Below are positions 54,401 through 57,174 of a stretch of DNA of 64,000 bases, piece by piece. The DNA comes from Spirosoma fluviale (GTDB lineage: Bacteria > Bacteroidota > Bacteroidia > Cytophagales > Cyclobacteriaceae), in contig CAMDEU010000001.1 in assembly GCA_945897085.1 (NCBI GenBank), positions 42,313 to 106,312 of the forward strand, written 5' to 3'. Both the position numbers and the translations under genes were made by a program. The notes under the pieces were generated by a model. The model saw nothing but the letters and a program-made list of their open reading frames with translations. It had not been told where the DNA came from and ran no database searches. The first letter of the stretch is position 1, and the number at the start of each line of letters is the position of its first letter.

Positions 54401-54874
54401 TTATTTCTCTTTGTCAAAAAATGAGATCGGTCTATTGATACTTTCTTCCAATACAATTAAGGTTTCTGTTCGGTCAATACCCTCCACTTTTTGGATTTTG
54501 TCTAGCACAAGTCGGAGGTGATTGGTGTCTCTACAAATGATTTTAGCGAAAATCGAGTAATTCCCAGTAGTGTAATAAGCGCTGACTACCTCAGAAATCC
54601 CTTTTAACTTTTCGATCACGGTATCATATAGCGAGCTTTTCTCTAGGTAGATTCCTAAGAATGCAGATATATCGTAGCCTAATTTTGAGAAATTGATGTT
54701 CAGAGTTGCGCTTTTTACCACGCCCATATCCTCCAATTTCTTCATTCTCACATGAACTGTACCGGAAGAAACGAATACTTTTTTTGCTATTTCAGTGTAT
54801 GGCGTCTTCGCATCTTCATTGAGCAAGGAGATAATCTTTAGGTCAACATTATCGATATCTAAAATTTTGTCCAT
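54401..54874 (-). CDS. Lrp/AsnC family transcriptional regulator
   Basis: N-terminal HTH (DLKIISLLNEDAKTPYTEIAKKVFVSSGTVHVRMKKLEDMGV) and RAM domain. Confidence 0.95.
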   Translation of the reverse strand: MDKILDIDNVDLKIISLLNEDAKTPYTEIAKKVFVSSGTVHVRMKKLEDMGVVKSATLNINFSKLGYDISAFLGIYLEKSSLYDTVIEKLKGISEVVSAYYTTGNYSIFAKIICRDTNHLRLVLDKIQKVEGIDRTETLIVLEESINRPISFFDKEK

Positions 54875-55136
54875 TTTTTGGTGTGTGATTTAGATGATTT
54901 TTAATAAAGGATGCATGAAATTATAGATTGTTTAAAATATTCCAAAATTATTTTTTCAATTTGCAATTTTGTATAAAATATATTTCCTTTGTGAAAGTGT
55001 TCTGCAGCCAAATTTAATTTTGGTTTTTGAAATAAAAAACTCAAAAAGGACTAGTCCAACTTAATTAGGCCGAAGAATTGAAACAAAAAAGAACTTTTAA
55101 TTTCTAAAGTTATATTTGGGTTTATATTCTGAAAAG

Positions 55137-55162
55137 GGTCTTGTCATTGACAAGACCTTTTT
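55137..55162 (+). terminator. Orphan intrinsic terminator in the lrp/M14 intergenic region
   Basis: GGTCTTGTC-att-GACAAGACC followed by TTTTTG; no ORF upstream on this strand. Confidence 0.8.
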
Positions 55163-55254
55163 GTTTTTACCTGGTTTTGGGGGCATATTTTTTTTTAACG
55201 GCAATCAATTCTCTGCTTCTCTTTCCTATTTTTAGCTAGTCAACGACCCTTTCC

Positions 55255-57174
55255 ATGAAAAAACAACTCTTATTTTTCCCATCCTTTTTGCTTTCAACTG
55301 TGCTTCTAGCTCAGGTGAGGCCTTTTGTGCCTGAGCAAGTGTTTCCTGAGAAAAACACAATAAGTAAACATTACCTAGTTTCTGGTGAACGTCACGGGAC
55401 TTCTTTTTTCAAGAAGTTTGAATTTCCAGAAGTAGAGTATCGTCCAGGCACCGCTCTTGACTTTACCAAATACCACACTGTGGATGTCATGTACCATTGG
55501 TATGAAACCTGGGCAAAGCAATATCCACAGCTGGTAGACCTCTATGTGATAGAAGAATCTTTTGAAGGAAGACCGATCTACCAAATGACGCTTACCAATA
55601 AGACTACTGGAAAGGATACAGACAAGCCAGCAGCGTATTTTGAAGGAGGGAGACACTCAGGTGAAATAACCGCGAGTGAATCTATCCTGTGGATGACCCA
55701 GCATCTTTTAGAGAACTACGGCAAGGATCCTGAGATCACTGCGTTGCTCGATACTAAGGTGATTTATTTGCGTCCACAAAATAATCCGGATGGCTCCAAC
55801 ATGTATTTATTTACCGCTCAGCGCAACAGGAGTACCGTTAAGCCTCACGATACAGATCGGGATGGCTTGGTGGATGAAGATCCAGAAGAAGATTTAAATG
55901 GGGATGGAATCTTGTACCAAATCCGCAAAAAGGCAGTTACACCCGAAGAAAAAGAAAAAGCAAATTATATCCTGGACCCTAGAGATCCGAAAGGACGATT
56001 GATGAAGCAAACTTTCCCAGGAAAGGGAGAATACATCATCTACAGTGAGGGAATTGACAACGATGGAGATGGTCGCTACAATGAAGACGGAATTGGCGGA
56101 TTAGATCTTCATCGCAACTATCCAGAGAACTGGCGGCCAAACACTGGTGGAGACCTCACCGGAAGGGGATATATCCAGTTTGGTGCAGGAGAATACCCAC
56201 TCAGTGAAATTGAATCTCGCGCTACTGTCCTATGGATGTTGAGTCATCCAAATATCTCCGTGGTCAACTCCATGGATACTCGGGTGCCCATGCACTTGCG
56301 CCCACCTTCCACTTCCAAAAGTGAAGAGCGGATGTATCCACAAGATTTGGCGATTTACAAAGAAATGGATCAGCTAGGATTATCTTTTACCGCTTACCCT
56401 TGGGCTGGCGATGTGTATGAAACCTATGCCACCCGCTACAAGGTCAATTCCATGACGGGGGACCCACTCAAGCCAGAGCCGCTTTTCGGGCATGGGCCTG
56501 ACTTCGGCTACTTTTACTACGGTAGTATTTGGTATGGGGATGAGCTCTGGAACAATGGCGCCATGAAAGATTACGATAACGATGGCATCTATGACGATTA
56601 CGACGGTCTGATGTGGGATGACGAGGCCAATGGCAGTAAAGGTTTTAAGTCATGGACCGCATTTACCCATCCTGAATTGGGCGAAGTTGAATATGGAGGG
56701 TTTCACCCCAAGTTTTTTGGTCAAAATGGTCCTCCTTGGCAATTGGAAAGCTGGGCAAAAAAGCAGGCCCTCTTCAACATAGCGATGGCAAAGAGACTGC
56801 CTCAGCTTGTAGTTGATGATTTGAAAGTTAAAAAAGTGAAAGCTGGAGAATACCAAGTGACCTTAACTTGGGTCAATACTGGGAAATTGCCTGTAGCATT
56901 GGAGCAGGCCAAACTGGTGAAAATTGTTCAAGAGGATCGCGTTTCCTTAGATTTTGATAAGGACTTGTTGAAAGGTGATCAAGAAGCTACCGTTCGAATT
57001 GTTATTCCAAGTTTGTACGATAAAACTATCTATGCCGGCTACACCGGAGTAGGAGAGAAAAAGACAGCCACCTTTGTAGTACAGGTGAAAGGAGATGCCC
57101 CTGTCAAAGGAAAAATTAAGCTTTCATCCACCCGAGGAGGATTTATCGAAAAAGAATTTACCCTAAGTAATTAA
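55255..57174 (+). CDS. Secreted M14 family zinc carboxypeptidase
   Basis: Signal peptide; FEGGRHSGEITASES (HxxE), RPQNNPDGSN, LDLHRNYPENW. Confidence 0.92.
   Translation: MKKQLLFFPSFLLSTVLLAQVRPFVPEQVFPEKNTISKHYLVSGERHGTSFFKKFEFPEVEYRPGTALDFTKYHTVDVMYHWYETWAKQYPQLVDLYVIEESFEGRPIYQMTLTNKTTGKDTDKPAAYFEGGRHSGEITASESILWMTQHLLENYGKDPEITALLDTKVIYLRPQNNPDGSNMYLFTAQRNRSTVKPHDTDRDGLVDEDPEEDLNGDGILYQIRKKAVTPEEKEKANYILDPRDPKGRLMKQTFPGKGEYIIYSEGIDNDGDGRYNEDGIGGLDLHRNYPENWRPNTGGDLTGRGYIQFGAGEYPLSEIESRATVLWMLSHPNISVVNSMDTRVPMHLRPPSTSKSEERMYPQDLAIYKEMDQLGLSFTAYPWAGDVYETYATRYKVNSMTGDPLKPEPLFGHGPDFGYFYYGSIWYGDELWNNGAMKDYDNDGIYDDYDGLMWDDEANGSKGFKSWTAFTHPELGEVEYGGFHPKFFGQNGPPWQLESWAKKQALFNIAMAKRLPQLVVDDLKVKKVKAGEYQVTLTWVNTGKLPVALEQAKLVKIVQEDRVSLDFDKDLLKGDQEATVRIVIPSLYDKTIYAGYTGVGEKKTATFVVQVKGDAPVKGKIKLSSTRGGFIEKEFTLSN

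Follow-up and report, generated by a model that had tools for sequence, protein, structure and literature searches.

In enterobacteria, GcvB is an amino-acid small RNA (sRNA) encoded divergently from the gene of its regulator, GcvA, and Spot 42 represses secondary metabolism in response to sugar. RsaE/RoxS, an sRNA of the Bacillota, represses enzymes of the TCA cycle and of amino-acid catabolism, arginase included (PMC8334554). Few sRNAs with a known regulon have been described in Bacteroidota. GibS of Bacteroides thetaiotaomicron is an intergenic sRNA of about 145 nt with a conserved, unpaired seed over the start codons of metabolic genes, for which a link to catabolite control has been proposed (PMC7366714), and Rfp18 of Flavobacterium is a genus-conserved sRNA that uses one pairing region for several targets (PMC9723704). 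Each of these two has a handful of targets.

Here we analyse an intergenic locus in a stretch of 64,000 nucleotides from a genome recorded as Spirosoma fluviale (henceforth the window). We read the feature as a new sRNA family of a known kind (i.e., a trans-acting base-pairing sRNA) encoded next to an Lrp/AsnC-family regulator gene (lrp). Our main reading, to which we assign a probability of roughly 0.8, is that it specifies an antisense sRNA predicted to block translation of a regulon for amino-acid catabolism, fatty-acid catabolism and gluconeogenesis. Judged from its predicted targets, it is probably a master RNA switch for the breakdown of amino and fatty acids and for sugar making, acting on dozens of genes. 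Five things are shown by comparing genomes: the sRNA gene with its conservation, predicted accessibility of its linker, a motif at start codons, the dependence of this motif on the presence of the sRNA gene, and the shared function of the predicted targets.

Like RsaE/RoxS, the sRNA is highly conserved and is predicted to have multiple targets, with a short seed for translation start regions; an arginase-family gene is also among the predicted targets of the lrp-adjacent sRNA, and its predicted targets in amino-acid catabolism and central carbon metabolism would agree with those of RsaE/RoxS. By contrast, RsaE/RoxS belongs to another phylum and pairs with the ribosome-binding site through UCCCC motifs, whereas here the seed UAUUUGGGUUUA lies between a hairpin and the terminator, the neighbour is lrp and there is no Rfam match. 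GibS comes from the same phylum and also places an unpaired, conserved seed over the starts of metabolic genes, but its seed is 5' and nine genes are differentially expressed, whereas here the seed is 3' and about 30 catabolic or gluconeogenic families are predicted; no sequence relation between the two was recognised, and they are set apart by the negative Rfam scan and by description. Rfp18 is likewise a Bacteroidota sRNA with a single pairing region and several targets, but it targets metalloproteases via a stem-loop, and its description sets it apart in taxon and regulon. GcvB and Spot 42 differ in being Hfq-dependent and unrelated in sequence, and the regulator beside the new sRNA, which may control it, is of the Lrp/AsnC type rather than GcvA.

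A sequence-only reading of the window had proposed a near-consensus promoter, a strong terminator with no open reading frame (ORF) ahead of it and a transcript of about 165 nt (coordinates are given in Table 1). The promoter boxes are present as described. Of 62 scored relatives, about 50 share TTG-N20-TTNNTTTG with a spacer of exactly 20 nt; for most of the rest our script picked an alternative box, and the TTG-N20 pair is readable by eye in several of them. In Flavobacterium the -7 consensus has been published as TAnnTTTG (PMC9723704), and the promoter was absent from the output of our promoter scan because that scan is built for E. coli type promoters. The terminator (GGTCTTGTC-ATT-GACAAGACC-TTTTT) ends about 92 nt ahead of the M14 start codon and was the single hit of the terminator scan on the + strand, an unexceptional count (1 found vs 0.7 expected in shuffles); in the alignment of relatives its stem carries compensatory changes at 7 pairs. 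Given that both are conserved, we regard promoter and terminator as real, and together they would give a transcript of roughly 165–176 nt, in line with the size first suggested. Positions 54998–55165 fold better than 200 of 200 shuffles (z −3.66).

The window's ORF list holds no ORF ahead of the terminator on the + strand, and no conserved ORF or small peptide was found among the loci, where the longest ORF ranges from 4 to 30 aa depending on the locus; a small peptide gene was thereby ruled out. The sRNA gene is thus intergenic, with its own promoter and Rho-independent terminator and without a conserved ORF. The stem candidates noted earlier (CCAAATTTAATTTTGG, i.e., CCAAA/TTTGG, and TTTTTGA/TCAAAAA) are indeed present, but both fall within the variable 5' half, and relatives do not keep them as such. 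The promoter region shared by lrp and the sRNA gene (54885–54991) is strongly conserved (AAATTAnAGATTGTTCAAAATATTnCAAAATTATTTTTTCAATTTG) and is possibly an Lrp operator controlling both. A motif common to the lrp leader, AATCTCTAA, was dropped as it occurs in just 18 of 64 loci.

Table 1 Features of the sRNA locus, with positions in the window
Feature	Position	Strand	Remarks
lrp, Lrp/AsnC-family regulator	54401..54874	-	Divergent, constant partner of the sRNA; Pfam AsnC_trans_reg 2.4e-17
sRNA promoter, Bacteroidota type	54961..54991	+	TTG (54961-54963)-N20-TTCCTTTG (54984-54991), close to TTG/TAnnTTTG
Predicted sRNA transcript, ~167 nt	54997..55163	+	Start inferred from promoter, end from terminator
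sRNA 5' domain	54997..55091	+	Sequence variable, no consensus structure; weakly conserved ATTTTGG/ATTTGG element
44-nt core, AACTTTTAATTTCTAAAGTTATATTTGGGTTTATATTCTGAAAA	55092..55135	+	Near-invariant across genera; one loop change in the window's own genome
Core hairpin AACTTT-(8 nt)-AAAGTT	55092..55111	+	RNAalifold consensus; invariant
Single-stranded linker	55112..55131	+	Unpaired in consensus fold; seed TATTTGGGTTTA at 55113-55124
Rho-independent terminator	55132..55162	+	14 pairs; compensatory changes in relatives
M14 peptidase gene	55255-57174	+	Downstream neighbour of the sRNA; ATG at 55255

The core (AACTTTTAATCTCTAAAGTTATATTTGGGTTTATATTCTGAAAA) showed 0–1 mismatches in nearly all of about 60 loci, with Litoribacter diverging more, and the roughly 95 nt 5' of it were poorly alignable among relatives. 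RNAalifold returned a consensus fold made up of the hairpin AACTTT/AAAGTT, the 20-nt unpaired linker AUAUUUGGGUUUAUAUUCUG and the terminator, and found no conserved fold in the 5' half of the sRNA. In single-sequence folds the linker can take other partners. Covariation, the check put forward with the sequence-only reading, is seen in the terminator stem; the core hairpin never varies in the alignment, meaning that covariation is silent there. In the 5' half, ATTTGG/ATTTTGG is kept in almost all relatives (alignment columns 27–32; about 55017–55024 in the window), and this element may possibly be a second, weaker seed resembling that of the core.

When we compared the intergenic region with whole genomes by BLAST, almost every member of the same genus gave a strong match. 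Of 85 genera sampled across the GTDB family, 19 had the core, namely Algoriphagus and about 18 others. An exact 24-mer of the sRNA occurred in 99 stretches of named genomes, with one copy each in the 80 examined; carriers among those listed were Algoriphagus, Belliella, Cecembia, Echinicola, Indibacter, Mongoliibacter, Mongoliitalea, Aquiflexum, Cognataquiflexum, Rhodonellum, Pararhodonellum, Litoribacter, Anditalea, Nitritalea and Arthrospiribacter. In these 80 stretches lrp was divergent from the sRNA, at a distance of 201–243 bp, in all 78 loci with lrp in view. A covariance model run against 242 order-level genomes scored family members at 89–102 bits and the next best hit at 42 bits; as the alignments shown at 42 bits and below were terminators without the core, we saw no evidence of the sRNA beyond the family. 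No match to the sRNA turned up in plasmids, phages or viral contigs. Rfam had no family at the gathering threshold anywhere in the window and nothing above chance at loose thresholds, and we found no literature on sRNAs in Algoriphagus or Cyclobacteriaceae in open-licence PMC. The downstream neighbour of the sRNA turns over (M14, a secreted-looking protein of about 180 aa, or S9) beside the constant lrp and sufB, which suggests that gene loss or gain in the peptidase block happened separately in several lineages.

The lead to targets came from the first, unbiased BLAST search, which gave weak antisense matches to the core elsewhere in several genomes. As one of these, in a family member, lay immediately 5' of the start codon of PEP carboxykinase, we searched for pckA in carriers and non-carriers of the sRNA gene (30 genomes with and 30 without). 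In many carriers the pckA leader reads TTTTCAGnnTnTAAACCCAAATAT-tt-ATG, a sequence that is reverse-complementary to the linker along 20–28 nt, and a leader complementarity score of at least 30 was reached in 15 of 25 carriers vs 1 of 23 pckA copies of non-carriers. No pckA was found in the window's own, incomplete genome. In one genus, the pckA leader (ATAACTTTAGACCTTAAAA) is complementary to part of the core hairpin and not to the linker, which hints at a seed role for the hairpin as well.

We then listed exact copies of the 12-mer complementary to the seed, TAAACCCAAATA, in 18 carrier genomes that were complete or close to it, excluding the sRNA gene itself. Of the 106 copies classified (by a script with simple ORF rules for start codons), 74 lay directly upstream of an ATG in the target orientation, most often at a distance of 3 nt (28/74); the others fell in ORFs on the opposite strand (20) or the same strand (3), ahead of a start but reversed (2), or elsewhere (7). 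These 74 sites represent about 30 target families. In 18 non-carrier genomes the 12-mer was rarer, with 1 of 30 copies at a start (Fisher p = 1.4e-11), and 400 permuted 12-mers gave 177 matches in 1.38 Mb of related sequence, 12 of them (7%) start-proximal (binomial p ~5e-61 vs 74/106). Both p-values are overstated, since orthologous sites of related genomes do not count as independent. The reversed pattern was unusable as a control since ATAAACCCAAAT occurs within the core complement; we used a different permutation instead, which had 5 matches in the 18 genomes, none of them at a start. Across all targets, pairing past the 12-mer was only weakly above background. The -7 box TAnnTTTG was found 5–34 nt ahead of 16 of the 74 sites (background 3%), meaning that at least these 16 sites lie in transcribed leaders. 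The sRNA thus has a conserved, predicted-accessible seed that is complementary to several putative target mRNAs at or near the start codon. Leaders of fructose-bisphosphatase genes have their site 16–17 nt ahead of the ATG, unlike the usual 3-nt spacing.

Such a distribution might also arise at the DNA level, if a transcription factor, perhaps Lrp, bound the 12-mer both in the locus and before catabolic genes, with no RNA pairing involved. The locus does adjoin an Lrp/AsnC gene, and the members of the regulon have typical Lrp-type functions. However, the fixed orientation of the sites (74 sense vs 2 reversed), their tight distance to the ATG and not to a promoter, and the -7 boxes upstream of 16 of them, where the site is transcribed, make a DNA-level operator unlikely, and within the locus the complement belongs to a terminated transcript, in its single-stranded linker. 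We consider this the best of the alternatives, with a small chance of being right. Slightly less probable still is that TAAACCCAAATA is a translation-initiation element which pairs with rRNA or another factor, the sRNA being a decoy or a coincidence. A stretch similar to TTATTGGGTTTAAAGG occurs in Bacteroidota 16S rRNA, and a position right before the ATG fits an initiation element, but genomes without the sRNA also have ribosomes and yet show no enrichment at start codons. Moreover, the extension expected for the 16S stretch is absent (C at −5/−4/−3 in just 7–22%), and pairing in pckA extends over 20 nt within sRNA-specific sequence.

Target identities were assigned with NCBIfam and Pfam, and sites were counted per cluster in the 18 carrier genomes. 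The largest groups were acyl-CoA dehydrogenases (10 sites), acetyl-CoA acetyltransferase (thiolase; 9) and phenylalanine 4-monooxygenase (6), followed by class 1 fructose-bisphosphatase and 3-hydroxybutyryl-CoA dehydrogenase (5 each), PEP carboxykinase (4 exact sites, more with mismatches), and the L-serine dehydratase alpha subunit and 3-oxoacid CoA-transferase A (SCOT; 4 each). Homogentisate dioxygenase had 2 sites and recurred in a further genus, RicT had 3 and a FabH-like synthase 2. Further targets were Glu/Leu/Phe/Val dehydrogenase, the methionine gamma-lyase/CGS family, acyl-CoA carboxylase carboxyltransferase, malic enzyme, the arginase family, 2-oxoacid dehydrogenase E1, DUF779, ThuA and a few others. 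Sites off this theme were those of RicT, ThuA and a flippase (site 44 nt away). The predicted targets belong to one physiology, i.e., amino-acid and fatty-acid/ketone catabolism and gluconeogenesis. As predicted, they cover the route from phenylalanine via homogentisate and acetoacetate to acetyl-CoA, the oxidation of fatty and branched acyl-CoA, the breakdown of serine, methionine and arginine, and malic enzyme, PEPCK and FBPase for gluconeogenesis.

In the mechanism that we propose, transcription of the sRNA gene would start at its own promoter, in the direction divergent from lrp, and stop at its own terminator. Lrp would sense amino acids and control the sRNA, as the constant lrp neighbour suggests by analogy with GcvA, which controls the adjacent GcvB. 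The invariant hairpin would present the single-stranded linker for pairing with UAAACCCAAAUA in 5' leaders, a few nt from the start codon, with longer pairing in pckA. Since the paired stretch, at about −15 to −3 relative to the ATG, would occupy the ribosome footprint and block ribosome entry, repression of initiation is likely, and expression of the catabolic and gluconeogenic genes would fall. Flavobacterium mRNAs lack Shine-Dalgarno sequences (PMC9723704), and GibS is reported to pair at start codons in the same phylum (PMC7366714); given that translation in the phylum is independent of Shine-Dalgarno pairing, a leader at this position would be a direct ribosome-blocking site. We infer production of the RNA, pairing in the cell, the repressive effect and control by Lrp. 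On balance, though with less assurance than for our main reading, we favour the wider view that this undescribed, lrp-tied family acts as a global post-transcriptional repressor which, through one seed of 12–20 nt placed over the start codons of some 30 families, would switch a clade of Bacteroidota between sugar and amino-/fatty-acid use. The gene, its seed and a coherent predicted regulon can here be read from sequence alone and the hosts are cultivable (Algoriphagus, Belliella, Echinicola), meaning that RNA-based carbon/nitrogen switching in Bacteroidota becomes directly testable. Dozens of natural leader sites are at hand for asking how an sRNA blocks initiation without Shine-Dalgarno sequences and which chaperone, if any, takes part.

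The sequence-only reading had further offered a terminated leader (attenuator) regulating the M14 and S9 peptidase genes, which we now regard as very improbable. Although the terminator precedes the M14 gene on the same strand and the downstream gene of relatives is nearly always on the sRNA's strand, the RNA core is invariant beside a changing gene: the closest relatives have M14 there, most others an unrelated c3 protein of about 180 aa and some S9, and the distance varies. Furthermore, there is no conserved antiterminator, the upstream half of the sRNA being variable; the consensus fold contains no alternative helix, and an attenuator would leave the start-site motif unexplained. Its other candidate, a group-specific 6S RNA binding RNA polymerase, has the right size and a core containing TATATTTG, which fits the TAnnTTTG promoter consensus, but is the least credible explanation of all, as the consensus shows two short hairpins and an open linker instead of a long closed hairpin with a central bubble, the target motif goes unexplained, and Rfam gave no 6S match in the window or relatives (RF00013: 0 of 29 genomes, although a model that finds no 6S in any of the relatives may be blind here).

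Returning to the trans-acting sRNA, we looked for its targets in the window's own genome (2.24 Mb, 77% complete), of which 824 kb (37%) with 686 genes were sampled. There was no exact copy of the 12-mer outside the sRNA gene. The best two leaders of the 686 genes were those of malic enzyme (GGAATATAGACCCAA) and of an HPPD-like dioxygenase of tyrosine breakdown, in which ATTAACCCAAATACAAC stands two nt ahead of the ATG; leaders of serine dehydratase (ATAAACCCAAA) and of a Glu/Leu-type dehydrogenase pair too. As the number of good leaders was not above that for shuffled seeds (22 vs mean 12, max 30), it is the identity of these genes that speaks for targets in this genome. Close relatives have exact sites at genes for an acyl-CoA dehydrogenase, phenylalanine hydroxylase, PEPCK and a 2-oxoacid dehydrogenase-type protein (named by similarity to typed clusters). 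Metagenome-assembled genome (MAG) records labelled Spirosoma fluviale carry this Algoriphagus-type locus, and their species names look wrong.
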